Below are positions 308 through 28,250 of a DNA stretch of 32,149 bases, piece after piece. The DNA is from Methanothrix sp. (lineage in GTDB: Archaea; Halobacteriota; Methanosarcinia; Methanotrichales; Methanotrichaceae): contig JAUWQF010000011.1 of the NCBI GenBank assembly GCA_030611205.1, positions 1 to 32,149 on the forward strand. The letters run 5' to 3'. Made by a program: the position numbers and the translations under genes. Numbering within the stretch: the first letter of the stretch is position 1; each line of letters begins with the position of its first letter. The notes beneath the pieces were generated by a model. That model made no database searches and was not told where the DNA came from. It saw only the letters and a list, made by a program, of their open reading frames with translations.

Positions 308-1135
308 TTAAGCCTCTTCGTGTGTATTCGTCTGCCACCATATCATAGCGCTTTTTGATTTACGCTTCAAGCAGAGCGCCCCATTATATTCTACCAGTGT
401 TTTGGATAGATGCGCCCTCAGGATCTCCTCTTTTTCTGATGGCAGGTCATATGTTTCTTTTAGTTTGGCCACAGCCTCATCTAGACCGACATAGTGCTGT
501 TCAAATTCTGAGTCCCATATTTCCACATTCGCATATATGCCCATGTCGTGCAGGATATTGCAAAGGTAGATGTAATCCGACCATGAGGAACGTTTTTCAC
601 CGTAAATTTTCTCCCAGAGTCCCCCATCCATCCATCTGCCTGCAAATGTGAAGAGATAAACACATTTTTTTGCGGTGGCATCCATTTTTGCAAGCGCATC
701 CTGTATATCAAGCATGGCAAGCGAATGGGACGCTATTACAACATCATGCTGCTCTATATCAACGCCCAACTCGATGTCTTCCCACCTTTTATTAAGATAT
801 GTGATGTTTTCCACTCTTTCTTTTTCCATGTTTTCTTTAAGACACGCAAGCATGCCTCTGGATGGGTCTATCGCAGTCACACTCTTTACGCACTTTGCGA
901 TAGGAATTGCAAGTCTCCCAGTGCCAGCACCCACATCCAGAACCGAATATTCTGGAGCGAGTTTGATCTTCGCTATTTGCTTCTCAGCACGTTCTCTGTT
1001 CTGCATCGTGGATTCATTGAACTGCTTTGCTCTACCGTCCCAGAAGCTACCAGCGGGTTCGTCGAGGGTTCTTCTCCATGGAGAGCTCGATCTCATCACC
1101 TTCCACAATTCGTTCCAATTTATTATTCCTTCCAT
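308..1135 (-). CDS. Class I SAM-dependent methyltransferase (copy 1)
   Basis: A 275-residue Rossmann-fold methyltransferase. Motif I is VLDVGAGTGRLAIPIAK near residue 70, followed by an acidic residue in TAIDPSRGML that should bind the SAM ribose and a post-I segment ending in ENMEKE. I chose the ATG at 1135 (MEGIINWNEL) because homology with the second copy at 3319-4146 begins there and both then have the same length. An upstream in-frame extension has no counterpart in the other copy. It lies between a dockerin-SBP gene and a btuC gene and ends one base before btuC. The context suggests methylation of a corrinoid or other tetrapyrrole, or of a metal ligand, but nothing in the sequence fixes the substrate. 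Confidence 0.85.
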   Translation of the reverse strand: MEGIINWNELWKVMRSSSPWRRTLDEPAGSFWDGRAKQFNESTMQNRERAEKQIAKIKLAPEYSVLDVGAGTGRLAIPIAKCVKSVTAIDPSRGMLACLKENMEKERVENITYLNKRWEDIELGVDIEQHDVVIASHSLAMLDIQDALAKMDATAKKCVYLFTFAGRWMDGGLWEKIYGEKRSSWSDYIYLCNILHDMGIYANVEIWDSEFEQHYVGLDEAVAKLKETYDLPSEKEEILRAHLSKTLVEYNGALCLKRKSKSAMIWWQTNTHEEA

Positions 1136-1339
1136 GTTATTATCACTTTTGTTATTCTGTGGAATATATTCAAACGACAGCCATATGTTAGATATTCTTA
1201 AAAAAATACAAGGGCAGGAAGTGGGCGGAAATAAGAAATATCTTCCTCCCAACAAGGACAGTGGAAAGACCCAGTCGAGGTATATCGGCAAAGAATTCCA
1301 CCTGATGGCCATTCAGGTTGCAGATGTCGCGCATATTCG

Positions 1340-3317: not shown

Positions 3318-3318
3318 A

Positions 3319-4146: not shown

Positions 4147-4317
4147 GTTATTCCCATCTGAAAAAATCGATGTGGTAGTTTTTGATCCAGTTTTAGCTAT
4201 GTTCATTTGCCATGCCTTCTTACCTAAATAATGAAAAGAGGAGGAAAACCCTCCAAACAAACTTTCTCGTTTTTCTGCATTGCTCTTGTGTCTCATTACA
4301 CATTCTGGTGCCTTATA

Positions 4318-10014: not shown

Positions 10015-10887
10015 TCAAACGTCTCCTGTCAGATTTGAACCAGTCTCCTCTCTTTCCCTCAAGAGAACCTCTATCTCTTCGTTTATCCCATCGAGTTCGT
10101 CATCCGAGAGTGGGTCAGGCATAACCCGATCCTCATTCTCGCAGATGGCAGTAGCGAGGTATCTGAACGTATCTGCGATCTCCGAGTCAGGTACATACTC
10201 GATCACAGTCTTGCGGTGCAACTCAGCCCTTGGTATGAGTATGCTCATCGGGACTCTTCCCAGCACCTTCGTACCCAATCTCGCTGCGAAGCCATCGATT
10301 ATCGACGGTTCATCAACCACACTCCTGCCGTTGTAGATGATTCCGCCGAGGGTTACCGCACCACGGTCTGCGAACCGTTTTATGCATTTGCAGATGTTGT
10401 TTGCGGCATAGATCGCCATGGGATCGCAGGTTGTTACGATGTAGACATCGTCAGCCAGACCCTGTCGGAGAGGCATCGCAAACCCGCCGCAGACAACATC
10501 GCCAAGCACATCGTATATCACGGTATCAGGCTTGATGTCATCGAATACACCAATACGGTCGAGCATATCCACAGCGGTTATCACTCCACGCCCGGCACAG
10601 CCAACACCCGGTTCCGGTCCGCCAGCTTCGATGCAGTGAACACCATTGAAGCCTTTGAAGACGACATCGTCCAGCTTCATCCTATCAGGTCCCTCTGTCC
10701 GGAAGAGATCGAGCACGGTTGGAAGCCTCTTGCCGACCAGATTCCGGGTCATGTCAGACTTCGGGTCACAGCCCATCACCATGATCGTCTCACCGTTCTC
10801 TGCCAGAGCCGCGGCAATGTTTGAGACGATCGTGGATTTGCCGATCCCACCTTTTCCGTATACGCAGAATTTTCTCATTTCATTCAT
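10015..10887 (-). CDS. NifH-like reductase ATPase of a nitrogenase-like complex
   Basis: A 290-residue P-loop iron protein. The Walker A/deviant P-loop is [18 protein letters not shown] at the N-terminus. Switch I carries [11 protein letters not shown]. The two cysteines that bind the bridging 4Fe-4S cluster are in GVGCAGRG (with the Arg that is ADP-ribosylated in NifH) and [11 protein letters not shown]. By family it passes electrons with ATP hydrolysis to a two-subunit component 1. The start overlaps the K-like stop (TGAATG), giving tight coupling in a D-K-H operon. It could serve a tetrapyrrole reductase (compare BchX, BchL, CfbC) or an unknown reductase. Nothing suggests true nitrogen fixation, because neither component 1 keeps the cofactor ligands and nifENB are absent here. 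Confidence 0.9.
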
Positions 10888-12008
10888 CCATAACTCATAA
10901 CAGTGTTAATTATCGCCTCAGTCAGGCAGACAGCACCTCTGAAACCTGCGTAGGGTGCATCATCATATACACAGACATTATCAAAGACAGGATAACAGAA
11001 CCTTATCAGGGGAATATCAAGCGTCCTAGCAATATTCTGCTCAAAGCTGCTTCCGAAAAGGATTGTCGTGTTTGAGTTCCTGACTCCTTCCTCGAATTCA
11101 AAGTAATCGTCCACATTTCTGGCAGAGACCTCGACGTTGAAGCCAAGCTCCCAGTTCAGGAAGTTTGCCATCGCTTCTGCATGGAAATCGCCGATTATTG
11201 AGACCGGGGTTCCGTAGAGTTCATGCAGATATAAGTATACCTTCTTGAACGGTTCGATATCGAACTCCGGCTCATGCCCTGTGCCAAGTTCTTCTGATAT
11301 TGCGCTGGTGAGCTGCGTTGTGCCTTCAAGTCCGTAAGGATACTCCATCTCGAGATATGGCACACCGAACTCTATCTTCATATGCTCTGCAAGCTTACTT
11401 CCCTGCCCGAGTACCACGTTCAGCTCTGCCGCTGGCGCTTTTTTGAACTGCTCCAGACTGCATTTCGATATCACAGAGTTCACTTCCACGCCTGCATCGC
11501 GGAGCAATCGTTTGATCTCTTTCACGTCCGCATCGACCTTGAAGTCATCAGGAGAGAAGCCAATCAGATTGACAGAGTTTTCAATCATATCAGATTCATT
11601 CATCAGCCCTGCCAGATGGGTGAGTGCTTCTTCGTATCCATCCCTCATCGAGCCCTTGAAGCCAGCAGCTTCCATCCACATCACTTCCGCGTCGAGCGTT
11701 ACAGAGTTCACGACCGCCCCAACGTCATCGCCTATGATCGAAGGGGCATCGCCCGCTATGACCAGTAGAATAGGGGTATCGTACAGCTCGTCCGCCCGTA
11801 TCAATGCTTCACGCAGTGCGTCTTCACCACCGAAGACTATCTCTCGTTCGTGCATGACAGTGCAGGCATGTCTCATATCGAACTGATTTGAGGTGGTCTT
11901 GAAGATCGCAGCGCCCCAGTTACATCCAACAGGGACATGATTGAGCACCACTGCATCAGTTATTCCAGAAGATGCCCGGAATGCACCAAAGAATTTACCG
12001 CCGTCCAT
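10884..12008 (-). CDS. Nitrogenase-like component 1, K-type subunit
   Basis: A 374-residue NifD/NifK-superfamily protein. It retains the [10 protein letters not shown] cysteine (residue 29) at the position of the second P-cluster cysteine, and a further cysteine at 49. At the position of the third P-cluster cysteine (before IIGDD) it has aspartate 87. The short N-terminus lacks the first cysteine. The Cys-to-Asp change recalls the mixed Cys/Asp cluster of protochlorophyllide reductase. I prefer ATG 12008, which has GTGAT five bases upstream, over the GTG at 12017. The gene overlaps the D-like gene by about 14 bases and the NifH-like gene by 4. It probably forms a heterotetramer with the D-type subunit. 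Confidence 0.85.
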
Positions 12009-13581
12009 TGTTATCACATCCTTCGCTCTTCATGCTCCACATCCCGGACCACATCTCTCTCGATGCCGAGCATCGGTTATCATCAAGCATGGGGTAGTAG
12101 ATTTTATCATAGTTGAACCTGGAGATTATGGGTTCTCGATGATTCTGACCTGTCTTTCCGGTATTCAGTTCACGGTTGAGATACTTTCCGAACACAACGA
12201 TTCCGGAAAAACCGGTTCGGAAGAGGAGGTATCTCGTGGCAGAGATGTCTGTCACCCCGACTCCACCGCCCTTTTCGTAGATGGGTGGTGTTATGCGATC
12301 GCTCAGGACGTGGTCAACCTTCTTTGCAATTTCCGACATCTCATCGAGTGTCGGGTTCGTTATGACCTCAAATTTCAGGTCCCATTCCTCGAACGCTTCC
12401 TGCATGTTCGTAATCATGACCTCGATCGTTTCCTCAGATATGTTGAGAGCCTTCAGAAGCTGCATATCCACGCAGAGGTATTTTATCGGGAGTTTTAGAT
12501 CGGTTGCATAGATTCTTGCAAGATATGGAGTAAAGAAGAACCCCTGAGTCGAAACAGCGAAATCATCCCTTGCAAATATATTCCGGTATTTCTCAAGTTC
12601 CTGGAGAGATTGCGTCTTCTCTCTTCTGATCGCATCATCTGCTTCTCCATCTAGACCCAGTTTCGATGCTGCATCGTGGTAGAACTTCTCAACACCGTCG
12701 AGACCAAAGTAGAAGAACCATTTCCGGATATAGTCGTTTCCGAATCTCGCCTTCATCCGCTCTGCCCAGCGCAGGTTCCGGGTTACGATGTTGAGTTCTG
12801 CGGCAGGAGCACGTTTTATCTCTTCGACGGTACACGTCGGAAGTGTCAGATTCACACTGACCCCCATCGCACCGAAGATGTGTTTGATCTCCCGAAGCTC
12901 GCTTCTGAATCCGTAAGTGAATCTGCCAAAGGACTCGATGTTCACAAGATTCTCAACGATCTCCTGCTCCTCCATCAGTTGATCCACGATCGAGAACATT
13001 ACCTCCTCATGCCCGCAGCCCCGCAGATCGTACGCCGGAGATCTCGAAGGATCCTTCCACGATTCCGCATAGTCTCGCATAATCATATCGAGCGACTCCC
13101 TGCTCCGATGTGCGAAGCCCTCTGACGGGACATGCAGAAGATCGCAGGGGAGATCGAGTTCTGTGATGACTCCTGAAACGTCATCGCCGACCAGACCCGA
13201 GACGCATGTCGGAAGGACAGCGATCAATGACGGATGGAACCGGCGATAGACCTCGTTGATATTATCTCGCAGCTTATCCTCTCCGCCGTAGATTACATCA
13301 TTCTCGTTTAGATCCGTGCATGGCAGATTGTAGATCGGTGCATACATCTTGCGTGGCGTCAATCGCTGGTGAAAAGCACAGCCACTCGGTCCGTGTATGA
13401 GCGGTATTGCGCCCTCGATCTCTGATACCGCGTAGACGGAGCCAGAGAGCTTACAGTTTATTCCGTAACGGTGAAACTGCCACGTTGTGCCCTGGTGAAT
13501 GCCGTTGAATACGCGATCACGGAATATCTCACGGAGCGGACTTCCATCATCATTTGCCATATCGTGTTTGCTCATTTCCAT
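11995..13581 (-). CDS. Nitrogenase-like component 1, D-type subunit
   Basis: A 528-residue NifD-superfamily protein, first in a D-K-H operon. P-cluster-type cysteines are present at 43 (GINCKLSG), 68 (IHGPSGCAFHQR) and 126 (VLPTCVSGLVGDD), with an extra one at 88. The FeMo-cofactor cysteine of NifD is replaced (LNIVTRNLRW), and I see no counterpart of the cofactor histidine. A cofactor-free reductase is therefore likely, as in ring-reducing enzymes for chlorophyll or F430. Having separate D and K subunits sets it apart from the two-gene CfbC/CfbD F430 reductase. A frameshifted SBP gene lies about 105 bases upstream and an HmdB-like gene precedes that, so the set may be part of a longer operon. 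Confidence 0.88.
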   Translation of the reverse strand: MEMSKHDMANDDGSPLREIFRDRVFNGIHQGTTWQFHRYGINCKLSGSVYAVSEIEGAIPLIHGPSGCAFHQRLTPRKMYAPIYNLPCTDLNENDVIYGGEDKLRDNINEVYRRFHPSLIAVLPTCVSGLVGDDVSGVITELDLPCDLLHVPSEGFAHRSRESLDMIMRDYAESWKDPSRSPAYDLRGCGHEEVMFSIVDQLMEEQEIVENLVNIESFGRFTYGFRSELREIKHIFGAMGVSVNLTLPTCTVEEIKRAPAAELNIVTRNLRWAERMKARFGNDYIRKWFFYFGLDGVEKFYHDAASKLGLDGEADDAIRREKTQSLQELEKYRNIFARDDFAVSTQGFFFTPYLARIYATDLKLPIKYLCVDMQLLKALNISEETIEVMITNMQEAFEEWDLKFEVITNPTLDEMSEIAKKVDHVLSDRITPPIYEKGGGVGVTDISATRYLLFRTGFSGIVVFGKYLNRELNTGKTGQNHREPIISRFNYDKIYYPMLDDNRCSASREMWSGMWSMKSEGCDNNGRR

Positions 13582-14967: not shown

Positions 14968-16029
14968 TCACTCATATTTGTCAGCTATTTTGGGTTCAAC
15001 TTCCATTCCAGCCCCAGTAATGAATCTCACGGTTGTTGGAAGTAAATTTACAAAGTCTAACATATCATTGATATGTTTTACTTCTGCACTTGTTGTAGGC
15101 CACCTCGAACCATCCCTTACTCTGTGTACTGATGCACCAGCATGGACGACTCTGTTGACTCCAGCCATTATCCAGAGTGGAATGTGTTCGTATCCACTGA
15201 TATGGATGTCAATATCTCGAAAAATCAAACGTGCGATTGCAGCAGTTTTTGCCGCCTCCAGTGGCGAAGCCGGTGGATGGTTAGCCATCGGAGTTCCAGG
15301 ACCCGGATGGAACCATGTGCATAGGAAATACTTGAAATTTTCGAACTGTTTCAGGTAAAACATGTGATCTACGCGGTCATCATAGGATTCTCCCAGTCCA
15401 CTCATTAGCACACTGTTTAATCTCAGTCCTGTATCGTTTATCATGTTAGCAAGTTTTTTTCTTGCATCCAGGTCATCTCCGGGTTTTACTTTTCTAAATA
15501 ACTCTTCATTAAGCGGGTTAACTTCGAAAGAGCTTGTTACATCTACCCCCCCTAAGTTCTTTAATTCCTTTAATGTGTCTTCAGAAAGTGCGGGACCAAC
15601 ATTCACCCAAATATCAAGGTTGGTCGCTCTTTTCACTGCTTTGACGGCTTCAATAACTTTTTCTCCACCATCTCCTACTATTGTTCCGCCACCAAGCTCT
15701 GTCATGCTTATTCCTGCTTCCTCTATCAATCTGGCACCTTCAACTATCTCATCAATGGTCAGAACATTCTCGGGTCCAAAACCAGAGCTGTTTATAGTGC
15801 TCGAATGCCCACAGTATCTGCATGGCGGATCAACAGTGCAGTGCGTAATTAAGCCTATAAAGCCATCCAGCTTAAACACATTCCCAGTTTCGTCATCCCG
15901 TACCCTGCTTGCAAGTTCAAACAGTTTCAATGCTTTGTCATATCTGCCTGTTTCTTTAAACAGATACAGTGCCTCTTCTCTTGTTATCTCACTACTTTCT
16001 GCATTTTTCAATACTTCTTCAAATATCAT
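14968..16029 (-). CDS. HmdB-like radical SAM enzyme (BioB/HydE/PylB superfamily)
   Basis: A 353-residue radical SAM protein. The cluster motif is CTVDPPCRYC, cysteines 64, 70 and 73, a CX5CX2C spacing instead of the usual CX3CX2C. That spacing is known from HmdB, which acts in FeGP-cofactor assembly for Hmd hydrogenase. A GGGT-like SAM-binding motif follows (ELGGGTIVGDGGE). The C-terminal half (HPGPGTPMANHPPAS and later SGYEHIPLWIMAGVNRVVHA) resembles the biotin-synthase/HydE barrel end. A GGAGGG site lies 8 bases before the ATG. No hmd, hmdC or other FeGP gene is in the window, and it lies between SBP genes and the nitrogenase-like operon. A role in modifying a tetrapyrrole or other imported cofactor is possible. 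Confidence 0.82.
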   Translation of the reverse strand: MIFEEVLKNAESSEITREEALYLFKETGRYDKALKLFELASRVRDDETGNVFKLDGFIGLITHCTVDPPCRYCGHSSTINSSGFGPENVLTIDEIVEGARLIEEAGISMTELGGGTIVGDGGEKVIEAVKAVKRATNLDIWVNVGPALSEDTLKELKNLGGVDVTSSFEVNPLNEELFRKVKPGDDLDARKKLANMINDTGLRLNSVLMSGLGESYDDRVDHMFYLKQFENFKYFLCTWFHPGPGTPMANHPPASPLEAAKTAAIARLIFRDIDIHISGYEHIPLWIMAGVNRVVHAGASVHRVRDGSRWPTTSAEVKHINDMLDFVNLLPTTVRFITGAGMEVEPKIADKYE

Positions 16030-16101: not shown

Positions 16102-17385
16102 CTATTCCGGTTCTGGATAGACGAAAACGCCTTGCGTATCTAAGTCAATGTCCAATCCCTGGAATCTTGTCAGATATTCATGATGAATCGCTTTTGGATC
16201 TAAATCTTCGAACATCTCTGGATGGAACCACTTTGCCATGTATACAGTTTGAAGAAAGCCTCTACATCCACTGGCGGGCCCGTAACAAAGGATATAACCA
16301 CTGATTACGTAAACATCCCCTTCTTTTACAGCCTTCACACTCTCCAATTCAGGCCGACTCATCATTTCATCTCTCATCTCTTCTAACTTTGCTGTATCAC
16401 CTGCATCCAGGTCGTAACCACCACAACTCCCTGATACTTTAACTATAATCTCAGGGTTTTGATCTATTATTGCTTCAGGATTCACAGACCCCATCAAATC
16501 AGGGAAGATGTTCTTGCCACCTGCATTTCCGACGAGTGCACGAGATTCATCAGCAGTACCCCATTTGTTGCTGCCCTCAAAGTATACTTTTGGTTTATCG
16601 TCTTCAGGAATCTCATCCACCACCTCTTCGATCGAGTTCATAATATCCTCATACCAATCAATGAATTCCTCGGCTTCGTCCTGCTTATCAAAGACATATC
16701 CAAGCTTTTCTAATTCTTCACATATATCATTCCCCCATACACCCCCATATACACGAATCACTGTAATGCCAGCGGATTCTAACACATTTTGGGCATTATC
16801 GAGCGTTGGATCGCCACCCAAAGGTTTAGCTATTAACATGACCACATCCGGACGTAGGCTCAATATTACTTCACAATTAGGCTCCCATATCAATCCAACT
16901 GTTGGTTTATCTTGATACTCTGGGAAGAATACTTTATAATTAACTCCATACGGTGGCCCTCCTGATGATTGGACAAGACTTTCTACACCGACTACTTGAT
17001 TCTCCTCTACTCCAATCGATCGTACCATTCCAAGAGCTTGGCGGAACGTGACAACAATCCCATCCACCGGCTTATTCACAGTTATCGTTCTGTCAGCAGA
17101 ATCGATCAACGTGAGCTCCTTCTCATCTCCACGTATGATCTGCTCGATCTGGACGATATCATCCTCATCGATCCCGCCATCATAATTAGCATCAGCCAGC
17201 TCAGTCTCTTCATTCGTTCCCTCGATTATGCCCTCTACATACGCTATGTCATCCTCATCTATGGTGTCATCCATATTCGCGTTCCCGAAGATGCCAAGCG
17301 TGTAATCAGATGCGACCGAAGGCATTACCGCCAGTGTTGACGATAGAAGAAGCATCATCAGCAAAAAATTTGTAGATCTTTTCAT
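16102..17385 (-). CDS. Dockerin-bearing substrate-binding protein (SBP4)
   Basis: A 427-residue exported binding protein, last of five head-to-tail SBP genes. The signal peptide (about 1-26, ending PSVAS) is followed by a dockerin module with loops at about 34-45 and 64-75 (DANYDGGIDEDD). The PF01497-type ligand domain opens with DRTITVNKPVDGIVVTFRQA. The normally basic residue before the first strand (PVxRIV) is replaced by PVDGIV, so ligand or partner contacts may differ. The protein ends FQGLDIDLDTQGVFVYPEPE. Its ATG directly follows the TGA of SBP5, and the Shine-Dalgarno site is made by the last SBP5 codons. The HmdB-like gene begins 72 bases downstream. Confidence 0.9.
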   Translation of the reverse strand: MKRSTNFLLMMLLLSSTLAVMPSVASDYTLGIFGNANMDDTIDEDDIAYVEGIIEGTNEETELADANYDGGIDEDDIVQIEQIIRGDEKELTLIDSADRTITVNKPVDGIVVTFRQALGMVRSIGVEENQVVGVESLVQSSGGPPYGVNYKVFFPEYQDKPTVGLIWEPNCEVILSLRPDVVMLIAKPLGGDPTLDNAQNVLESAGITVIRVYGGVWGNDICEELEKLGYVFDKQDEAEEFIDWYEDIMNSIEEVVDEIPEDDKPKVYFEGSNKWGTADESRALVGNAGGKNIFPDLMGSVNPEAIIDQNPEIIVKVSGSCGGYDLDAGDTAKLEEMRDEMMSRPELESVKAVKEGDVYVISGYILCYGPASGCRGFLQTVYMAKWFHPEMFEDLDPKAIHHEYLTRFQGLDIDLDTQGVFVYPEPE

Positions 17386-18642
17386 TCAGCTCTCCTCCAT
17401 CGGCGGGTAGACAAACACGCCGTGTTCGTCAAGATCATAATCCAGTCCCTGGAATCTGGTCAGGTACTCCTGATGGATCGCCTGTGGGTCCAAATCCTCG
17501 AATAAGTCGGGGCGTAACCATTTTGCCATATATGCTATGGCTATGAAATGCTTTCCACCTGTAAGCTCTTTGATCATTACGTAAACTCTTTCATCCTTCA
17601 CTGCTGAGACGTTCGCCAACTCGGGGCGTTCCGCTATCTCGTCCCTTATATCTTTTAGCCACGTTACGTCGTCTACATTATAGCCATACTTGCCTCTGGC
17701 ATATCCCTGCTTAACTATAATCTCCGGGTTACGCACCATGACCTCTTCTCGGTCTATAACTTTATAGCCAGAAATGTCATCGAAAATGTTCTTGCCGCCT
17801 GCCACCTCCACAATTTGATGAAGTGCGGTCCCCTCTCCACCGATCTTGTAGGGTTCACCAAAACCTTCAAAGTAGACTCTTGTTTTTTTATCCTCGGGAA
17901 TTTCCTCCACACTCTCTTTGATATCATTCGAGTACCCTTCGTAGAATTCAAAGAAATCCTCTGCTTCATCCTCTTTATCAAAGATGTATCCCAGTTTGTT
18001 TACCTCTTCAAGATAATTTTCTGGTTTGAAGCAGTCAAGACGAACCACTGTGATGGAGGCATCTTCAAGCCTTTTTTGAACTTCATCACAAGATGCTTCG
18101 AAGTGTGTTGCATATAGAAATACAGCATCCGGGTCCAGCTCTATTATTTTTTCGATGTCCGGAGACCATCCAGAGCCTGCACTCGGATAGTCCTTGAACT
18201 CCGGGAAAAAATTTTCCTTCCCGATCGTACTCTTTGATACACAGATTATATTCTCTTTTTCCAGCTTGAGAGAACGCATCGCCTCCAGGGTATTCCAGTT
18301 GAGTACAACGACCTTCTCCAGTGGCTTATCTATTGTAACAGTACTTCCTACTGTATCTATGATCGTAAGCTCCTTCTCCTCCCCACTTATGATCTGCTCG
18401 ATCCGGGTTATGTCATCCGCATCAACTTCGCCATCATAATCGGCATCTGCCAGCTCAGTACGTTCGTTTGTTCCATCGATTATCCCTTCTACATATGCTA
18501 TGTCGTCCTCGTCTATGGTATCATCCATGTTTGCGTTACCAAAGACGTCAAGCGTGTAACCGGCTGCAGCTGCTGGTATGATCGCCAGCGGCGCACATGA
18601 TGCGAGAAGCATCACAAGCACAAAAACGATTGATGTTCTCAT
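17386..18642 (-). CDS. Dockerin-bearing substrate-binding protein (SBP5)
   Basis: A 418-residue exported binding protein. The signal peptide (about 1-27) contains LLASCAP, which looks like a lipobox, but the sister proteins lack it and an AAAA|GY cleavage is equally possible. Dockerin loops lie at about 35-46 and 65-76 (DADYDGEVDADD). The ligand domain opens with GSTVTIDKPLEKVVVLNW, with a lysine-rich N-lobe (LKLEKENIICVSKSTIG). It ends GVFVYPPMEES; the codons for EES plus the stop read GAGGAGAGCTGA and serve as ribosome binding site for SBP4. The gene starts directly after the SBP6 stop. The ligand is unknown. Confidence 0.9.
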   Translation of the reverse strand: MRTSIVFVLVMLLASCAPLAIIPAAAAGYTLDVFGNANMDDTIDEDDIAYVEGIIDGTNERTELADADYDGEVDADDITRIEQIISGEEKELTIIDTVGSTVTIDKPLEKVVVLNWNTLEAMRSLKLEKENIICVSKSTIGKENFFPEFKDYPSAGSGWSPDIEKIIELDPDAVFLYATHFEASCDEVQKRLEDASITVVRLDCFKPENYLEEVNKLGYIFDKEDEAEDFFEFYEGYSNDIKESVEEIPEDKKTRVYFEGFGEPYKIGGEGTALHQIVEVAGGKNIFDDISGYKVIDREEVMVRNPEIIVKQGYARGKYGYNVDDVTWLKDIRDEIAERPELANVSAVKDERVYVMIKELTGGKHFIAIAYMAKWLRPDLFEDLDPQAIHQEYLTRFQGLDYDLDEHGVFVYPPMEES

Positions 18643-19851
18643 TTAGCTCTCCTCCGGTGGTGGATAGGCATAAATACCCCGATACGGCATGCCCTGAAAT
18701 CGCTCCAGATATTCCTTATTCATTGCTTCTGGATCCAGATCATCGAATAACTCTGGATAGAACCATTTTGCGAGGCATGCGGCGCCGACAAAATATCTTG
18801 GCTTGGATGTGACCTGAATGGATATACAGTAAATTGCTCCATTCTTCACCGCCGTAACATTAGCCAGTTCATCACGGTTCATGATCTTAGCTCTTACCGC
18901 TTCCAGATTTGATGGATCATCGTGTTCATAACCACAGCCTATGCCTGTAAATGTCTGCCCGATAATGATATCAGGATTCTGCTCTGGCATTATCACCCAT
19001 TCAGGGTCTACATCTCTGTATTGATCAAAATCCGCAATATTTATTCCACCCACCATTGTACACAGATCATCAATTCCCACACCATTACCAATTGCCTTGT
19101 ATTCACTCTCATGCGTCCATATGGACTCAAAATACACCTTTGGTTTCTCTTCTTCTGATAGTTTCCCCACTCGCTCCTCGATCTTACTATTAAATTCCTC
19201 ATAGAAGTCGATAACATCTTCGGCCTCATCTTCCTTCTCGAGGATATACCCAAGTTTTCTAAAATCTTCTATCATATACGATGCCTTACTAAAACCCAAC
19301 CGGACCACAACGACATCGGTACCCTCAAGTTGTTCTTCAAGTCTTTCAGGAGGACATGACCCCGCGAATGCGAGGATAATGTCAGGTTCAAGGCTTAATA
19401 CCTTCTCAATGTCTGGCTCGAATCCACTCCCAACATCTGGCACCTTACTCATCACTGGGAAGAATAGAGAATGTTGTTTGGGCAAATAGTTAGGAATACC
19501 AACTACCTTATCCGTTGCTTTAAGCGATCGTATCGCTTCAGCACCATAGGTGCTCAAGACTATAATACGGTTTATCGGCTTGTATATCGTTACCTCCTTT
19601 CCATAAGGAGGATCGCACACAATCGTCCTCGGATAGTTCTCATGTATATGCCTGATCTCTTCCAGCTGATCAGATGTGATCTTTCCATCCTTGTACGACT
19701 GCTCGGCAACCCCCATCTCCTCATCAGAGACGATCTTGTCATCATTGCGATCGCCATGAACCACTACCCCCTGCGCACCGGCAGGCATTACCGCTAGCAG
19801 TGTAGATGATGCAAGAAGCATCATCAGCACAAAAATGGTATATCTTTTCAT
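18643..19851 (-). CDS. Substrate-binding protein with variant EF-hand/dockerin module (SBP6)
   Basis: A 402-residue exported binding protein. The signal peptide (about 1-26, AGA site) precedes a variant calcium module. One canonical 12-residue EF-hand loop is at 34-45 (DRNDDKIVSDEE). A shortened second loop is near 55 (DGKITSDQL), followed by the helix EEIRHIHENYP. This differs from the two-loop dockerins in SBP1-5 and SBP8 and recurs in SBP7 and SBP9. The PF01497-type domain starts near KEVTIYKPINRIIVLSTYGA, with an insert CDPPYG where relatives have DSAGR. It ends GIYAYPPPEES, whose codons again give the Shine-Dalgarno site for the next gene. Start and order were set by tight head-to-tail packing. 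Confidence 0.88.
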   Translation of the reverse strand: MKRYTIFVLMMLLASSTLLAVMPAGAQGVVVHGDRNDDKIVSDEEMGVAEQSYKDGKITSDQLEEIRHIHENYPRTIVCDPPYGKEVTIYKPINRIIVLSTYGAEAIRSLKATDKVVGIPNYLPKQHSLFFPVMSKVPDVGSGFEPDIEKVLSLEPDIILAFAGSCPPERLEEQLEGTDVVVVRLGFSKASYMIEDFRKLGYILEKEDEAEDVIDFYEEFNSKIEERVGKLSEEEKPKVYFESIWTHESEYKAIGNGVGIDDLCTMVGGINIADFDQYRDVDPEWVIMPEQNPDIIIGQTFTGIGCGYEHDDPSNLEAVRAKIMNRDELANVTAVKNGAIYCISIQVTSKPRYFVGAACLAKWFYPELFDDLDPEAMNKEYLERFQGMPYRGIYAYPPPEES

Positions 19852-19854
19852 TCT

Positions 19855-21063
19855 TCACACCTCTGGATAGACAAATACACCCTGCTCGTCCAGGTCATAA
19901 TCCAGCCCCTGGAATCTGGTCAGGTACTCCTGATGGATTGCTTGTGGATCCAGGTCCTCGAATAAGTCGGGGTGGACCCACTTTGCCACGTAGGCAAGTC
20001 CAACGACATTACTCACCCCATTGCAGATATCCGGGGTAATCAGGTAAATCTTGCCATTTTCTACTGCTGTAGTTTTCTCGAAGCCTAGGCGGCTCATAAT
20101 AGTATCTCTTACTGCTTTCATCTCTGTGGGATCATCTTCATCGTAACCACATGAGACTCGACTGCCAGATATACACTTTAATATAATATCAGGATTTTGT
20201 TCTATTAGCCATTCAGGATCTACTGAAGTAGCTGTAGTCTTTCCTGGCGCTATATCTTTAGCAATATTTATTCCGCCAGCCATCGTACATATCAGGTGAG
20301 TTGGAGAACGTTTATTGCGAGCGTTGTAGTCCCCATAGCATTCAATGTATACTCTAGGCTTCTTATCCTCATATATTCCTTCTATTTTTTCACAGATGGT
20401 ATCTATTTCACTCTGGTAAAAACTAACAAGTTCTTCTGCTTTATCTTCTTTTTCGAGAAGATATCCAATCTTTTCAATATCATCACATAACGCATCCGTA
20501 CTACAACAATCCAAACCAAGCAATAGAATCTCAGTACCCTTCAGATCATCTTCAAGTGCTTCTATTGGCGTTATCAACATAGTTCCGTATACAAGTATAA
20601 TGTCAGGAGACAAGCTGAGTATACCTTCGACATCAAGAGAACTATATTTTCCAACATTTGGCGATTTGCTTAAATCTGGGAAATACACCCCATCACTTGC
20701 AATATAATCACTCACTCCAACTATATTATCTTTTGATTCGAGTGCTCGAATAATCTCGGCACCTTTGGAATGTAGGACAATGATACGTTTTATCGGTTTG
20801 TATATCGTCACCTCTCTTCCGGCTGAATCAGTGATCGTCCTCGGATAGTTCTCATGTATATGCCTGATCTCTTCCAGCTGCTCAGATGTGATCTTCCCAT
20901 CCTGATATGACTGCTCAGCAGCAACCATCTCCTCATCAGAGACGATTTTATCGCCGTCAAGATCTCCTGGGACCACGACCCCCTGCGCACCGGCAGGCAT
21001 TACCGCCAGAAGTGTAGACGATGCTAGAAGAACCATCAACATGAAAATGGCAGATATTTTCAT
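19855..21063 (-). CDS. Substrate-binding protein with variant EF-hand/dockerin module (SBP7)
   Basis: A 402-residue exported binding protein. The signal peptide (about 1-26, PAGA) is followed by a single good EF-hand loop at 34-45 (DLDGDKIVSDEE), a degenerate second loop (DGKITSEQL) and the helix EEIRHIHENYP. The ligand domain opens with the textbook DSAGREVTIYKPIKRIIVL. A cysteine cluster (LDCCSTDALCDD) in the middle is not seen in neighbours and may bind metal or form a disulfide. It ends DLDEQGVFVYPEV, and the GAGGTG encoding the last residues is the ribosome binding site for SBP6, three bases further on. It is nearly identical to SBP6 in the first 70 residues but diverges in the ligand-binding part. 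Confidence 0.88.
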   Translation of the reverse strand: MKISAIFMLMVLLASSTLLAVMPAGAQGVVVPGDLDGDKIVSDEEMVAAEQSYQDGKITSEQLEEIRHIHENYPRTITDSAGREVTIYKPIKRIIVLHSKGAEIIRALESKDNIVGVSDYIASDGVYFPDLSKSPNVGKYSSLDVEGILSLSPDIILVYGTMLITPIEALEDDLKGTEILLLGLDCCSTDALCDDIEKIGYLLEKEDKAEELVSFYQSEIDTICEKIEGIYEDKKPRVYIECYGDYNARNKRSPTHLICTMAGGINIAKDIAPGKTTATSVDPEWLIEQNPDIILKCISGSRVSCGYDEDDPTEMKAVRDTIMSRLGFEKTTAVENGKIYLITPDICNGVSNVVGLAYVAKWVHPDLFEDLDPQAIHQEYLTRFQGLDYDLDEQGVFVYPEV

Positions 21064-22311
21064 TCAGCACTCCTCCAGTGGTGGATAGACAAATACGCCG
21101 TGCTCATTCAGGTCGTAATTACATCCAAAGAATTCTGTTAGATATTCCTGATGAATGGTTTGTGGGTCCAAGTCCTCGAATAAGTCAGGATGTAACCACT
21201 TTGCCCAATATGCAAGAAGCACAGGGTAATCAAGCCCGTAGCTGAGATATGAGCTCACTATGTAGACATGTCCCTTCTTCACTGCAGTAACATTAGCTAG
21301 TTCTGGACGATTCATGATTTCGACTCTTAGCGCCTCCGCTTTTGAAGTATCATCCACACCATAGCCCACATCGCCTTTAGGAATATACTTAATAATAATA
21401 TCTGGATTCTTCACCATTACCTCTTCTGGGTCGATGGTAGCGAAGGGACTATGGCTTACTAACTCGGAAAATATATGCCTTCCACCACTTGTGTCAAGCA
21501 ATTGCTGTGCGACAGAGGTACTGGTATAAGTCTTGTAATCACCGCTGCTGCTCTCAACATACACTTTGGGTCTATCTTCTTCTGATAATCCTTGTGTTCG
21601 TGCTTTGATAAGGTCAACGTATTTGTCATGGAAATCTTCGAGGTAATGCTCCGCTTCATCCCTTTTATCAAGGATATACCCAACTTTTACAAGCTGGTCT
21701 ATCGTAATCTCTGGTGTGGAGGATCCAAAACCAATTACTGTAATATCTGGGAGATTCTCATCAAGTTCTGCAGCCTTTGTGCTATATGCAATCACTAAAT
21801 CAGGGTTGAGACTGAGTATGGCCTCGTAGTCTGGAGTATACCAGGACCCGACAGACGGCCGCTCTGTGAGTTCTGGGTGATAGATTTCATATTCTATGCT
21901 ATCCCGTATATTGCTGGAGACACCGACTACTTTATCCTCTGCACCAAGTACTCCCATCAGTTTGGCATCACGATCGACAAGCGGAATGATGCGTGTTATC
22001 GGCTTGTGAACTGTTACAATTCTATCAGCACTATCGATGAGTGTAAGCTCCTTCTCCCCCCCGCTTATGATAAGCTCTATCTGCGTTATGTCCTCCTCAT
22101 CAATTTTGCCATCATAATTAGCATCTGCCAGCTCAGTGCGTTCGTTCGTTCCATCGATTATCCCTTCTACATATGCTATATCATCCTCATCTATGGTGTC
22201 ATCCATGTTGGCGTTCCCGAAGATGCCTAACGTGTAATCAGATGCACCCGCAGGCATGACCGCCAGCGACATGCATGACATCAGCACCAATACACAGACC
22301 ATTCTCCTCAT
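21064..22311 (-). CDS. Dockerin-bearing substrate-binding protein, first gene of the long operon (SBP8)
   Basis: A 415-residue exported binding protein. The signal peptide (about 1-23, PAGA) precedes a dockerin module with loops at about 33-44 and 63-74 (DANYDGKIDEED). The PF01497-type domain opens with DRIVTVHKPITRIIPLVDR. It ends GVFVYPPLEEC, where GAGGAGTGCTGAATG couples to SBP7. The ATG follows GAGGTGGCAAA. The 234-base upstream region holds the best copy of a perfect inverted repeat and the conserved leader. SBP8 is probably the first gene of a minus-strand operon that may continue through the D-K-H set to about 10 kb. Confidence 0.9.
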   Translation of the reverse strand: MRRMVCVLVLMSCMSLAVMPAGASDYTLGIFGNANMDDTIDEDDIAYVEGIIDGTNERTELADANYDGKIDEEDITQIELIISGGEKELTLIDSADRIVTVHKPITRIIPLVDRDAKLMGVLGAEDKVVGVSSNIRDSIEYEIYHPELTERPSVGSWYTPDYEAILSLNPDLVIAYSTKAAELDENLPDITVIGFGSSTPEITIDQLVKVGYILDKRDEAEHYLEDFHDKYVDLIKARTQGLSEEDRPKVYVESSSGDYKTYTSTSVAQQLLDTSGGRHIFSELVSHSPFATIDPEEVMVKNPDIIIKYIPKGDVGYGVDDTSKAEALRVEIMNRPELANVTAVKKGHVYIVSSYLSYGLDYPVLLAYWAKWLHPDLFEDLDPQTIHQEYLTEFFGCNYDLNEHGVFVYPPLEEC

Positions 22312-22545: not shown

Positions 22546-25500
22546 TCAACCCTTCAGAACCTTAGCCACCTTCTCCTTCCACCCGGCAACATCCTCCATC
22601 GTCATCACATCTATAGATCCGCCCTGGAACTCGCCCTTCACGTCACCCATCCGCTCCTCGATCCATCCCTCCATCTCCAGGTATGCGTTCTTCAACCCGT
22701 CAATCACGTCCGGATCGGCATCCCATAACCCCCGCTCATAAGCCTCAAGCAAGCGTCTCCCGATCTCCTCAAGCGCCCATGGGTTGTTCTTCTCGAAAAA
22801 CTTCCGCATCTCATCATCCAGAACGAACGTCTCTGCGATATCATCGAAGATCCAGTCATCAACCTCCTGGGTCGTCGCTTTCCATCCATAAACACGGCCT
22901 ACCCGTTTGGATATGTCGCCTGCGCCCTTGTATCCGTGTCTCTTCATCCCCTCGATCCACTTCGGGTTGAGGAGCTTTGTTCTGACAACCCGCCGAACCT
23001 CATCTGCAAGCGTTCTGACCTCGATTTTGTCTCCATCTCTGGTATCACCATAATATGCCGGAACATCATGTCCGGAGATCTCCCTTGCAGCGATGGTGAG
23101 GCCACCATGCGTTCCAAAGTAGCAACAGCATCCAAAAAGATCGTATTCATCTGTGACCGTCTTGTTGAAGGTCAGATCAACAGTTTTAAGCTGTGAAACG
23201 AACTTGGAGTGGGATTCCTCCCCGAATTTGCCTTTCCCATACTCATACCCGTTCCAGTAGACGTATACATCGGATAGGTCCTTATTTTCCTTCCAGGCAG
23301 ATGCGTATACAGCGAGGTTCACGCCGTTGCCATACGTTCCGGGCCTGCTCGCAAATATACGTGCACAATCACCGTCTCCACCATCTGCATACGATTCTGA
23401 GACGTGTTTCTTGAGATAATTCATCTCTTCGGGCTCATCGAGCTGTGATACCTCTCGTATCGCATCATCTATGAGTTCGATACAGTTATAGAAGCAATCT
23501 CGGGTAATCCCACTCACCCTGATAGTTACGTCGATTCTTGGACGGTTGAGTTCTTCCAGCGGGGTGATCCTGTACTCTCTCACCTTCCCATCCTTCCAGA
23601 TCGGCTCAACACCGATAAGATGCATGATCTGAGCAAGCTGCTCGCCATCCGCCCACATGATGTCAGAGCACATCCAGTACATGGCGATGTTCTCAGGACG
23701 CTTCCCGTGCTCATCCACGTATTTCTCGATCACGCCATCTGCAAGCCTCTGCCCGATCCGCCATGCCGCCTTCGTCGGCACCTTGTAGGGGTCGAGCGAA
23801 TAGAAGTTCCTGCCTGTAGGCATCACCTCTGGCTTGCCCCGGGTTATGAGGCCGGACGGACCCGGCTCGATATATCCCGCATCGAAGCCATGAAGCAGAG
23901 CACCGATCTCATCCGAGGCATCTATGCTCGAAGATATCTCTGCGATCTTGTCCCTGACCGAGAATATTTTATATTCATCCAGCCTCTTCAATCGATCCCC
24001 AAGTACCTCTTTGCATACTGTAACGGGGTCTTCACCCCTCAAAAAGCCGTTAAGAAGCTCTTTTCCCAGCGCATCGATCTCGCTCAGCACCTCGCTCTTG
24101 GCCTCCGATGGTTCGATATCCATCCCCAGAAGATCGAAAACAAGCTTCCTCATCTCTGAGTCGTACCGGAGTATCGAGTTGATGAACTCGATCTTCTTCT
24201 CCCCTTCAGGATTTTCTCCGAATATGTGCATCCCGTCCGGAATCTGGGTGTTGTATAACTTCGTTATCGCCTCATGAGTCTTAGCTAAGATCTTCTCAAA
24301 AGAGACACCGTTCTCCAACAACACATCAAGCTTTATCTCCTCTGAAAGATTTGTATCTCTTATCAGATCGATGATGATATGCTCAAGCGCATGAGCCCTC
24401 GCCCTGTCGGATACCTTCGTCTTGTTGTACTCTGCAATCTGGTCTTCGAGTTCCTTCAGATCGCCATATAGACCGCTTTCTGTCATAACGGTCTGCATGT
24501 GATCTATCAGGGTGGCATAGCTCCTTCTCTTAGCGATCGTCCCCTCCGGAGGATTGTCCGAGTTGTAGATGTAGAGATGCGGCATATCTCCGATCGCGAT
24601 GTCAGGATAGCAGCTCTCAGAGAGTGCAACCGACTTTCCTGGCAGGAACTCAAGGTTTCCGTGTGTCCCGACATGGATGATCACGTCAGCGCCGAAGTTG
24701 TTCTCGATCCACCGGTATGTAGCCATGTACTGGTGCGGCGGCGGAATCTCGGGGTCATGCAAAATCTTGCAGACCTGTCCGTCACATCGTGTGCCTGCAC
24801 ACCCTCGCTTGGGCTGAACACATACCACAGCGTTGCCGTATCGTACGCCAGTTACAACGATCTTACCATCATAGACCATCGCGGCCGGGACACCGTCCTT
24901 CTCCTCGCCCGGTGGATCCCCCCCCGCATCCCACATCCGCTCCTTGACATCCGGCTTGAGCGTATCGCCCCCTTCTTCGTCCTCCGCCTTTGCAACCCTG
25001 GCAAGTGCGCCGCCCTTGTCCACGATCTCATCGATCGTCGTCCACCTGAACTCCGATATTGCCTTGTGGTCCATAATGTTCTCAATGAGATCTTCCCCGC
25101 TTTCTGGCGGATCAACCGAATATCCGGCCTCTTTCATCGTGTTCAATATCCTTGATACGCTCTCCAGCGTATCGAGATGTGCTCCCCCACCTACTGTCGC
25201 CTCAACCGATGCACAGGGGTTGTTATGCAGAATAAATGCTACCTTGCGCTCGGATTTTGGCGTGTCCCTCAAGGAGATCCATCTCTTTAACCTCCTCACG
25301 ATCTTGGATACCTGCCCGTCGACCGGGACATGACGTTCGAACTCGGTTCCATGCTCCTCTTCGGTTCTCGACGCACCGATGATGATCGGCTCGATCACGC
25401 CCTCGAACTCGGCCATGGCAACGCTCCAGGCGACCTCGCTGGAACTCATCCCCTGGGTATCCTCTTTCCATTCGTCTTCTGTCCTGTGATAGACCATCAA

Positions 25501-26283
25501 CGGATGAAATACCGGAATGTCAAGCATCTTAAGTTTATTTACAGAATTTTCGGCGTTACCTGCATGAAATATTGATTGAAGGTTTATGACGGCATCTACC
25601 CTCGCCGGCTTCATAAAGAACGATTCGGTTACCTCCCCGCTCGATTTAGCACCTAGTTCTGCATCACCCATCCCGAAACAAAAGGCAGGGATCACATCGA
25701 ACTCTTCTTCAAGCTCACGGATCAGCGCATCCACGATCTCAAGGTCTTGATTTACCCAATATGTTCTGAAGAAGAGGATGCCGATCCTATGCTTCTTTGT
25801 TGCGTTGTACCATTCCAGATAGTCATCTACGCCCTCAAAGGCCCTCTCTGCATCTGGGTGGTAGATCCCCTGCCACATGGTCTCGGTTGGAGGATCGAAG
25901 TCGAACTCTAGACCCAGGACTTCTTTTCCAATATACTTAAGCATATTCTTTATGTTCTCTGACCCGCCGTAAACATGGTAGGCGTTGACCGTGGCAACGA
26001 TCTTCAAGGATACGTTTGAGATCGACCAGTAGGATGAATCACGGCCAAATGAGATGACCGGGACGTCCTCGTTCAACCCTTCTACGACCTCGTCCCAGAC
26101 CACATCACTGGTCGGACGCAGGAGGATGAGATCTGCATGTTTGAAGGAGCTTATACAGTTCTCCAGCTTCGCATCATCCTCAAGATCATGTGCGGACCAT
26201 GCGTGCAGTTCTACATCGAGTTCATTGCATGCCTCTGCCAGCAGCGAAATGTCGCTACCCCAGGTTATTGATGTTATCTTCAT
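22546..26283 (-). CDS. cobN: CobN/BchH-type chelatase large subunit
   Basis: A full-length 1245-residue member of the CobN/magnesium-chelatase H family, the porphyrin- or corrin-binding subunit that inserts the metal with help from an AAA+ partner. Recognisable blocks are an N-terminal flavodoxin-like region, HVGTHGNLEFLPGKS near residue 535, and GCCCYFGTHGGLTIAAREIS near 1055 with four clustered cysteines or aromatics. The final about 30 residues (GGSIDVMTMEDVAGW) recur in two cobN tail remnants in this window. Archaea make B12 by the anaerobic early-cobalt route, where CobN is not needed, so this copy may act on salvaged corrinoids, heme or F430-type rings. It follows btuC-btuD. The chlI-like gene at the right edge is a likely partner. 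Confidence 0.9.
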   Translation of the reverse strand: MKITSITWGSDISLLAEACNELDVELHAWSAHDLEDDAKLENCISSFKHADLILLRPTSDVVWDEVVEGLNEDVPVISFGRDSSYWSISNVSLKIVATVNAYHVYGGSENIKNMLKYIGKEVLGLEFDFDPPTETMWQGIYHPDAERAFEGVDDYLEWYNATKKHRIGILFFRTYWVNQDLEIVDALIRELEEEFDVIPAFCFGMGDAELGAKSSGEVTESFFMKPARVDAVINLQSIFHAGNAENSVNKLKMLDIPVFHPLMVYHRTEDEWKEDTQGMSSSEVAWSVAMAEFEGVIEPIIIGASRTEEEHGTEFERHVPVDGQVSKIVRRLKRWISLRDTPKSERKVAFILHNNPCASVEATVGGGAHLDTLESVSRILNTMKEAGYSVDPPESGEDLIENIMDHKAISEFRWTTIDEIVDKGGALARVAKAEDEEGGDTLKPDVKERMWDAGGDPPGEEKDGVPAAMVYDGKIVVTGVRYGNAVVCVQPKRGCAGTRCDGQVCKILHDPEIPPPHQYMATYRWIENNFGADVIIHVGTHGNLEFLPGKSVALSESCYPDIAIGDMPHLYIYNSDNPPEGTIAKRRSYATLIDHMQTVMTESGLYGDLKELEDQIAEYNKTKVSDRARAHALEHIIIDLIRDTNLSEEIKLDVLLENGVSFEKILAKTHEAITKLYNTQIPDGMHIFGENPEGEKKIEFINSILRYDSEMRKLVFDLLGMDIEPSEAKSEVLSEIDALGKELLNGFLRGEDPVTVCKEVLGDRLKRLDEYKIFSVRDKIAEISSSIDASDEIGALLHGFDAGYIEPGPSGLITRGKPEVMPTGRNFYSLDPYKVPTKAAWRIGQRLADGVIEKYVDEHGKRPENIAMYWMCSDIMWADGEQLAQIMHLIGVEPIWKDGKVREYRITPLEELNRPRIDVTIRVSGITRDCFYNCIELIDDAIREVSQLDEPEEMNYLKKHVSESYADGGDGDCARIFASRPGTYGNGVNLAVYASAWKENKDLSDVYVYWNGYEYGKGKFGEESHSKFVSQLKTVDLTFNKTVTDEYDLFGCCCYFGTHGGLTIAAREISGHDVPAYYGDTRDGDKIEVRTLADEVRRVVRTKLLNPKWIEGMKRHGYKGAGDISKRVGRVYGWKATTQEVDDWIFDDIAETFVLDDEMRKFFEKNNPWALEEIGRRLLEAYERGLWDADPDVIDGLKNAYLEMEGWIEERMGDVKGEFQGGSIDVMTMEDVAGWKEKVAKVLKG

Positions 26284-26339: not shown

Positions 26340-26396
26340 TTAGCTTCCCGGTTCCGGGTATACAAACACACCTTGCTCGCCCAAGTTGTCGATCTC
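26340..26396 (-). pseudogene. C-terminal remnant of an SBP gene
   Basis: Eighteen codons reading EIDNLGEQGVFVYPEPGS and stop. GEQGVFVYPEP is the conserved end of the SBPs in this window (DEQGVFVYPE). It starts within the btuD stop and has no start codon or signal of its own. It shows that an SBP gene was once between btuD and cobN, or that the present joint arose by recombination between SBP copies. Confidence 0.7.
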
Positions 26397-27183
26397 ACCC
26401 GGATGCCTTGCCCCCGTTGAGAGATCTTATCGGCACGACATAGGGGGTCTCGAAGCTATCGATCACCACCACCTCGACACCGTAGACCGACCTTACATTT
26501 CCAGATGTGAGCAGGGAGACCGGATCTCCTGTTGCGTAGATCCTGCCCTCCTTCAGCATCACGAGGGTATCGGCGTACCGTGATGCCAGGTTCAGATCGT
26601 GGATGGCCATCACAGCCGAGATATCCGTCTTCCTGACAAGATCACGTATGATCTCCATCACCTCGAGCTGATGTTTCAGATCCAGATTGCTCGTCGGCTC
26701 GTCCAGGAGAAGAACCTCCGGCTCCTGGCAGAGCGCACGGGCGACGAGCACCTTCTGCTTCTGTCCCCCGCTCAGCTCGTTGAAGTCCTTCAGGGCGAAC
26801 TCCTCGATGTTGAGAAGCTCCATAGTCTCCACAACCCTATCTATGTCCTCCTCGGCGACCCGCCAGCCCATATGCGGCCGTCTCCCCATCAGGATGGTAT
26901 CAAAGACCGTTGTCGAGAGGACGCTGGAACTGGACTGGGGGACGTACCCGAGGTACCTTGCGATATCCTGCCTGCCCATCGTCTTGATGTCCCTTCCGTC
27001 CAGGAAGATGCTACCCTTCGGCTTCAGGATCCGGTCGATGCACTTGATGAGCGTCGTTTTGCCGGAGCCGTTCGGCCCGATGAGACCCAGCACCTCGGAG
27101 TCGCCCACGACGATCTCCAGATCATCCAGGATCTTGTTGCTTCCGTAGCTGAAAGAGAGATCCTTTATCTTGATCTTTACCAA
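26395..27183 (-). CDS. btuD: BtuD/FecE-type ABC importer ATPase
   Basis: A 262-residue importer ATPase. Walker A is GPNGSGKTT at residues 36-44, the Q-loop is GYVPQSSSS near 80, and the signature [19 protein letters not shown] lies near 137. Walker B is VLLLDEPTS near 158 and the H-loop [14 protein letters not shown] near 195. These are the standard features of the B12/ferric-chelate class. It overlaps btuC by 7 bases. It is the only intact importer ATPase in the window, against ten SBPs, one more frameshifted copy and one truncated relative. It should energise uptake for several of the receptors. The symbol reflects the family; an iron-chelate or heme substrate is equally possible. Confidence 0.88.
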   Translation of the reverse strand: MVKIKIKDLSFSYGSNKILDDLEIVVGDSEVLGLIGPNGSGKTTLIKCIDRILKPKGSIFLDGRDIKTMGRQDIARYLGYVPQSSSSVLSTTVFDTILMGRRPHMGWRVAEEDIDRVVETMELLNIEEFALKDFNELSGGQKQKVLVARALCQEPEVLLLDEPTSNLDLKHQLEVMEIIRDLVRKTDISAVMAIHDLNLASRYADTLVMLKEGRIYATGDPVSLLTSGNVRSVYGVEVVVIDSFETPYVVPIRSLNGGKASG

Positions 27184-28250
27184 TACTCCTTCCTCCTTCT
27201 CATGAACAGATAGACAAAGAACGGAACGCCCAAAAACGCGGTCATTATGCCCACAGGCAGGATTACCGGCGCCAGAATCGTTCTTGCGACCGTATCAGCC
27301 CCCAGAAGCAGTATGGCACCCATGAGACCCGAGGCTGGCAGGAGGAATCTGTGGTCTCCTCCTATGACCATCCTGGTCATGTGGGGCGCAACCAGACCGA
27401 TAAAACCAATGGTGCCTGTGAAGCAGATTATGCACGCGGTTATGAGCGAGACCAGCGCCATGCAGATCACCCTCACCCCCTCGACGTTCACGCCCAGGCT
27501 CGTTGCGGTCTCATCTCCCGCGCCCATGGCGTTGATATCCCAGGATTTCAAGAGCAGGTAAGGCATACAGCAGGCGAGAACCACTGTGATGAGTCCTACC
27601 TTGGACCATGAAGACCTTCCCAGGCTGCCCATCATCCAGAAGACGACCTCCTGAACCTCCTCAGATGTGCCTACGTACTGGAGGAATGACGTCATCGCGG
27701 AGAAGAGGTACATGATGGCTATGCCGGCGAGGATCATCGTCTCGGGGGTGATGCCCTTGTACTTTGCCAGCCCGTAGACGGTGAACGAGGCGAGCAGTGT
27801 GAATACGAAGGCGTTTCCCACGATGAGATACTCTCCACCGACGAAGCCTGCTCCGAGAACTATGGCCAGGGAAGCTCCGAAGCCTGCTGCAGAGGCGATT
27901 CCAAGGGTGAAGGGGCTTGCTAAAGGGTTCTTTAGTATACCCTGCAGCACCGCTCCTGCAACGGCAAGCCCCATCCCTCCTACGACGGCCATAAGTACGC
28001 GGTGGAGCCTGAGCTTCCAGACGATCGTATCCACAAACCATGTTGCATGGAAGTGGTCCGGGAAGAACTTTGCCAGTATTGCGGCGTAGACCTCGCCAAC
28101 ACTGATATCGGCCGAACCAAGGGTGGCGGCTACCCCTGCCAGCACGATTATTCCAATGAAAAAAATAAGCATGATGAGGAACTTCCGGCCGACGAACCGG
28201 GTGTACTCCTCCTTCAGATCCGCCTTCTTAACTGCTGTCTCTGGAGGCAT
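27177..28250 (-). CDS. btuC: BtuC/FecCD-type ABC importer permease
   Basis: A complete 357-residue permease with a basic cytoplasmic N-terminus (about 25 residues) and about ten hydrophobic segments. Family motifs seen are RLHRVLMAVVGGMGLAVAGA, LQGILKNPLASPFTLGIASA, WMMGSLGRSSW and the late FIGLVAPHMTRMVIGGDHR loop that contacts the ATPase. The N-terminus matches the partial permease at the left edge. The ATG follows TGGAGG-like purines within the upstream remnant. It forms, with btuD, the importer core. The many SBPs nearby probably deliver to this or similar permeases elsewhere; a docking specificity cannot be read from the sequence. Confidence 0.9.
   Translation of the reverse strand: MPPETAVKKADLKEEYTRFVGRKFLIMLIFFIGIIVLAGVAATLGSADISVGEVYAAILAKFFPDHFHATWFVDTIVWKLRLHRVLMAVVGGMGLAVAGAVLQGILKNPLASPFTLGIASAAGFGASLAIVLGAGFVGGEYLIVGNAFVFTLLASFTVYGLAKYKGITPETMILAGIAIMYLFSAMTSFLQYVGTSEEVQEVVFWMMGSLGRSSWSKVGLITVVLACCMPYLLLKSWDINAMGAGDETATSLGVNVEGVRVICMALVSLITACIICFTGTIGFIGLVAPHMTRMVIGGDHRFLLPASGLMGAILLLGADTVARTILAPVILPVGIMTAFLGVPFFVYLFMRRRKEYW

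Follow-up and report, generated by a model that had tools for sequence, protein, structure and literature searches.

The protein encoded at 14968-16029 of the window, i.e., the whole stretch of 32,149 nucleotides of Methanothrix sp. DNA analyzed here, is a relative of HmdB that lies in a clade separate from HmdB. The new-type group to which it belongs is very probably an importer-coupled family distinct from HmdB, its genes being linked in operons to importers of three mutually unrelated types, FecBCD-like, Nik/Dpp-like and ECF. We propose that this HcgA-type enzyme makes or remodels a small ligand for the uptake of nickel, cobalt or iron, a reading to which we assign a probability of roughly 0.4, making and remodelling taken jointly.

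The plus strand of 14968-16029 is full of stops, hence the genuine open reading frame is on the minus strand. As the preliminary description had stated, its product has three cysteines in the spacing of HmdB, CX5CX2C, within the motif CTVDPPCRYC (C64, C70 and C73). The sole Pfam domain found was PF04055 Radical_SAM (47.4 bits, cut-off 29.5), which together with the three-cysteine motif makes the protein a member of the Radical SAM superfamily. Among 18 NCBIfam families, TIGR03957 HmdB matched best (201 bits, E 2.6e-59, residues 17-290), but it stayed below the curated equivalog cut-off of 320.9 bits; BioB and PylB trailed far behind with 79.5 and 75.2 bits. The closest solved structures were PylB, BioB and HydE (E about 1e-11 to 1e-6), and an AlphaFold2 model from six sequences was too poor for use (mean pLDDT 57.6). 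The gene lies among the following features, where SBP is substrate-binding protein.

308..1312, minus strand: class I methyltransferase (Pfam); relatives near the radical SAM gene in loci L114 and L116
3319..4296, minus strand: class I methyltransferase, near-copy of 308-1312 (Pfam, sequence comparison)
10015..10887, minus strand: NifH-like reductase (Pfam, NCBIfam; nifH 405 bits, PRK13230 450 bits)
10884..12017, minus strand: nitrogenase-like component 1 subunit (PF00148), divergent (Pfam, NCBIfam)
11995..13581, minus strand: nitrogenase-like component 1 subunit (PF00148), divergent (Pfam, NCBIfam); a relative lies 3' of radical SAM and SBP genes in locus L117
13687..14877, minus strand: SBP (PF01497) with a dockerin-like N-terminus by eye, separated by 90 bases from the radical SAM gene on its downstream side (Pfam)
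14968..16029, minus strand: HcgA/HmdB-related radical SAM protein, 353 aa, CX5CX2C at C64/C70/C73 (open reading frame, Pfam, NCBIfam, tree)
16102..17385, minus strand: SBP (PF01497) with a dockerin-like N-terminus, separated by 72 bases from the radical SAM gene on its upstream side (Pfam)
17386..18642, minus strand: SBP (PF01497) (Pfam)
18643..19851, minus strand: SBP (PF01497) (Pfam)
19855..21063, minus strand: SBP (PF01497) (Pfam)
21064..22311, minus strand: SBP (PF01497) (Pfam)
22546..26283, minus strand: CobN-type chelatase large subunit (Pfam, NCBIfam)
26395..27183, minus strand: ABC transporter ATPase, FecE-like (sequence reading; seed of the ATPase HMM)
27177..28250, minus strand: FecCD-type permease (Pfam, FecCD search)

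SBPs had been named as the neighbours before, and PF01497 proteins indeed flank the gene on both sides. In all, the window holds ten PF01497 genes between 1340 and 31195, a many-copy family, and the FecCD permease closest to the radical SAM gene is 11 kb off. By eye, most of the ten SBPs have a dockerin-like N-terminus; on the three that were scanned, Pfam Dockerin_1 reached only 11-13 bits against a cut-off of 22.9. SBPs of ANME that bear dockerins, Nik/Opp types among them, are described in the part of PMC9012536 available to us. The NifH-like protein passes the nifH cut-off (405 against 394 bits), and no NCBIfam family came near its cut-off for the two component 1 subunits (10884-13581). 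Elsewhere in the window, 142-1141 and 3153-4152 form a 1-kb repeat at 93%. Among broken pieces at 2842-2922, 5861-6055 and 6904-7470 are leftovers of the 3' end of CobN and, spread over several frames, of an ABC ATPase gene, the latter 92% identical to 26493-27066.

A scan of genome contigs with short peptide patterns gave three loci, close copies of the protein in the named genomes Methanophagales CSMAG_2436 (90%), Methanosarcinaceae CSMAG_2493 (88%) and Methanosarcinales Met33H (73%). The named genomes with a new-type gene are MAGs, and sampling in depth covered one phylum. Of the 392 genomes of this phylum, five had a match to the HmdB model above its cut-off; another 47 had sub-threshold matches (E <= 1e-25), PylB or BioB in many cases. 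A new-type profile found members in 12/237 genomes of the window's class (E <= 1e-40), in 2/58 of the class of G297 and in 6/59 of the class of G134, where six further genomes have a more distant type, g37. The resulting sample comprises 22 loci in 21 genomes (12 + 2 + 6, and Met33H, which is G111). Distribution is patchy: the single genome of the same genus (G001) lacks the gene. Plasmid records gave eight relatives of 23-28% identity, seven of them annotated bioB; the viral contigs searched held no relative. The G177 gene lies in two parts at contig ends (L081:108-1190 and L125:9389-9682), the 5' part being by eye fused in frame to a transposase-like N-terminus, from either insertion or assembly error.

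We built a tree of 42 proteins, 33 with CX5CX2C and nine references with CX3CX2C. The 33 CX5CX2C proteins all group in a single branch (94/91), and none of the nine references carries that motif. Inside this branch, the five true HmdB make up a clade of their own (100/99) without the window protein, which is found in a second clade of 23 new-type and five g37 rows (93/93, just under the starred level). It groups there with the copies of ANME-1, Methanosarcinaceae and Met33H (98/98). Forcing this group of four, picked after the tree had been seen, to join true HmdB cost 38 log units in the AU test (p 0.0006). New-type proteins and true HmdB share 21 conserved positions; S167, D185, A194 and R271 of the new type, also W286 and others, differ from true HmdB. 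BioB, PylB and HydE were ruled out as the identity of the window protein by CX5CX2C, the NCBIfam scores and the tree position outside these families.

The preliminary description had seen no hmd gene near the radical SAM gene and had proposed a search of the whole genome, besides a tree and a comparison of neighbourhoods. The window's own genome (2.19 Mb in 181 contigs, 95% complete, i.e., about 5% missing from the assembly) gave no HMD domain and no HmdC, and M. jannaschii as positive control was matched. Likewise, HMD and HmdC were each found in 0/21 new-type genomes and in 5/5 genomes with true HmdB. The loci of four of these five with wide flanks (L076-L079) read by eye as hcg/hmd clusters. 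In one (L079:1-7628, G212), a CobN-like gene and NikR-like genes are seen by eye near the true HmdB cluster.

What accompanies the new-type gene is an importer. We classed neighbouring genes by small HMMs built from the collected loci and confirmed key members by Pfam or NCBIfam. In 21 of the 22 loci from 21 genomes, an importer gene on the same strand is either next to the enzyme gene or separated from it by a single gene; such linkage would be expected of a metallophore biosynthesis and uptake system if the importers carry a metal chelate. The one locus without such a partner is L109, a contig of 3 kb whose ABC ATPase gene is on the opposite strand. Partners are of the FecBCD type in the window (SBPs), L067, L069-L075, L114-L121 and L125, of the Nik/Dpp type in L066 and L005, where the importer gene is 3' of the second of two enzyme copies, and of the ECF type in L068. 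A methyltransferase gene stands between enzyme and importer in L075 and L115. The enzyme gene overlaps an SBP, FecCD or ECF-S gene by four bases in 13/22 loci (11 ATGA, 2 GTGA), in either order; the SBP gene precedes the enzyme gene in Methanosarcinaceae and follows it in loci of the G134 class. Twelve of the 21 genomes have a FecCD gene within 5 kb of the enzyme gene, where 0.4 would be expected; the computed p of 2e-16 overstates independence, given the relatedness of the genomes and the placement of the 12 in four tree groups. Near true HmdB, FecCD was found in 0/5 genomes.

The importer link is not general to all CX5CX2C proteins, since it is lacking around g37 genes, which carry the motif and fall inside the same broad clade as the new type. 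Six g37 loci (L080, L082, L122, L123, L124 and L126, two of them on contigs of about 5 kb) have no importer gene within 1 kb; in L124, Dpp genes are four to six genes from the enzyme. In L080:5549-10206, the g37 gene is followed by genes for a NEW3-domain protein of 692 aa and, 2.1 kb away on the same strand, an MFS transporter, and relatives of both lie 3' of the importer genes in L125.

Nickel or cobalt is the substrate class that FecBCD, Nik/Dpp and ECF importers can share. The ECF genes and enzyme copy of Met33H have nikR and cbiM on either side, each scoring over a cut-off. Between cbiM and the divergently oriented ECF-S/radical SAM operon, L006:9285-9314 is the perfect inverted repeat ATTCACA-N16-TGTGAAT, a possible NikR operator with the N16 spacing of the E. 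coli operator. It stays a lead, since it is a single site and NikR-type repeats with up to three mismatches were not above chance (1 found, 1.8 expected). The SBP of L066 matched NikA best (266.6 bits, cut-off 393), followed by staphylopine-binding CntA, both below cut-off; the same cluster holds DUF364 genes, a domain that Pfam names for heavy-metal chelation. Archaeal nickel and cobalt transporters are treated in PMC2667541, and nickel uptake by methanogens in PMC10617489, in the available part of which the word metallophore does not occur.

Homology to HcgA, the importer neighbourhood, the shared Ni/Co substrate class and the presence of NikR and CbiM together lead us to the ligand hypothesis. 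Small-molecule radical chemistry would follow from the homology: with a 5'-deoxyadenosyl radical, the enzyme would assemble or rearrange an organic ligand that is small and probably heterocyclic (pyridinol-like). This ligand, or its nickel, cobalt or iron complex, would be imported by the neighbouring SBP/permease or ECF S-component. The precedent for such chemistry is the HcgA product, 6-carboxymethyl-5-methyl-4-hydroxy-2-pyridinol, for which the available part of PMC10100467 gives the precursor as unknown. As the residues named above differ from true HmdB, the new-type product may not be a pyridinol. Ligand tailoring could fall to the O-methyltransferase (4/22 loci), class I methyltransferase, cupin (L071 and L114, 50% identical to each other) and PNPOx-like (2/22) genes; that most of these occur in a minority of loci counts against the ligand reading, as do the distant FecCD permease and many-copy SBPs of the window and the g37 loci without a close importer. 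In only 2/22 loci (L118, 3.1 kb; L125, 5.6 kb) does an MFS gene, a possible exporter, lie within 6 kb downstream of the enzyme gene in the same orientation. Its product could transport in either direction, so a secreted metallophore is hypothetical. The wider proposal that archaea, including methane-metabolising lineages, build a pyridinol-like nickel or cobalt metallophore with an HcgA-type enzyme and retake it via FecBCD, Nik-type or ECF importers is doubtful.

The preliminary description had suggested an HmdB relative recruited to modify a tetrapyrrole or to make another cofactor. A relative that is not HmdB and occurs without Hmd does exist, as judged from tree, AU test and absence of Hmd and HmdC; the tetrapyrrole or cofactor role is not established, the constant partner across the 22 loci being an importer. 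In the window lineage, the enzyme may nevertheless act on a corrinoid, an F430-like or a novel tetrapyrrole, because its cluster combines CobN (22546-26283), the NifHDK-like set (10015-13581) and two methyltransferases. Chelatase and nitrogenase-like reductase would then work with the enzyme, and the SBPs would import the tetrapyrrole or its metal; importers of B12 and heme are indeed among PF01497/FecCD systems. Parts of the set recur in G539 and G453, i.e., CobN near the enzyme in L114 and L116 and NifDK-like genes in L117, and with the window this makes four of 22 loci. The 6-kb surroundings of the other 18 are free of both CobN and NifDK (several contigs are short), and the nearest enzymes, HcgA, BioB, PylB and HydE, act on small molecules, not on macrocycles. 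We regard the tetrapyrrole role as unlikely, although the sequence by itself would not separate it from a ligand role. Similarly unlikely is intracellular breakdown or opening, by the enzyme, of a metal chelate or cobamide after import, which would free the metal or allow a part to be salvaged. The tight pairing with importers, the scarcity of exporter candidates and the possibility that different chelates enter via three importer types would suit degradation, but the closest characterised relatives are biosynthetic, and partners of the O-methyltransferase and PNPOx-like kinds suit synthesis better than breakdown.

The NifHDK-like operon, 1.4 kb from the window gene, also raises the idea of a radical SAM maturation protein of a nitrogenase-like enzyme, like IsrB, MarB or NfaB. 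Group IV systems have such a B-H-D-K set according to the available part of PMC11423573, which further limits the likeness of the Isr, Mar and Nfa B proteins to the radical SAM motif. These systems resemble the window in having nitrogenase-like genes, a radical SAM gene and, for Isr, an importer in one neighbourhood, and in L117 an SBP gene and then two NifDK-like genes come after the enzyme gene. However, NifDK-like genes are near the enzyme in two of 22 loci, with an SBP intervening in both, and are absent nearby from the other 20; we consider a B-protein role very improbable. Least probable of all is that an HmdB has been left over or scavenged and goes on making the FeGP pyridinol: HmdB is the best NCBIfam family and the cysteine motif is the same, but the score below cut-off, the exclusion of the window group from the true-HmdB clade and the 21 genomes without HMD or HmdC largely refute it.

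Compared with known systems, the importer-coupled enzyme is closest to HcgA, the pyridinol synthase of the [Fe]-hydrogenase cofactor, with which it shares CX5CX2C and homology over most of its length. It differs from HcgA in score, clade and a genome without hmd and hmdC, and its genes stand in importer operons instead of an hcg/hmd cluster. BioB, PylB and HydE are related radical SAM families of about 23-28% identity to the window protein, but have CX3CX2C in 9/9 reference rows outside the CX5CX2C branch. L066 recalls staphylopine-type (Cnt) and NikABCDE operons in placing a Nik/Dpp-type importer beside small-molecule enzymes; unlike in those, its SBP stays below the NikA and CntA cut-offs, and by eye no staphylopine enzymes were seen. 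By title and abstract, we found no account of the new-type group in the open-licence literature.

Both PMC10100467 and PMC3087415 describe CX5CX2C as unique to HcgA. Our results show that it marks a branch wider than HcgA, of which most sampled members are importer-linked and occur in archaea without [Fe]-hydrogenase; the HmdB annotation is therefore wrong for the new-type group. These relatives may help in finding the HcgA substrate, and the new type offers a testable lead on how its archaea acquire nickel, cobalt or iron. If the pyridinol-like metallophore proposal is true, metal-ligand chemistry of this kind would be wider, with the [Fe]-hydrogenase cofactor enzyme as one of its branches.
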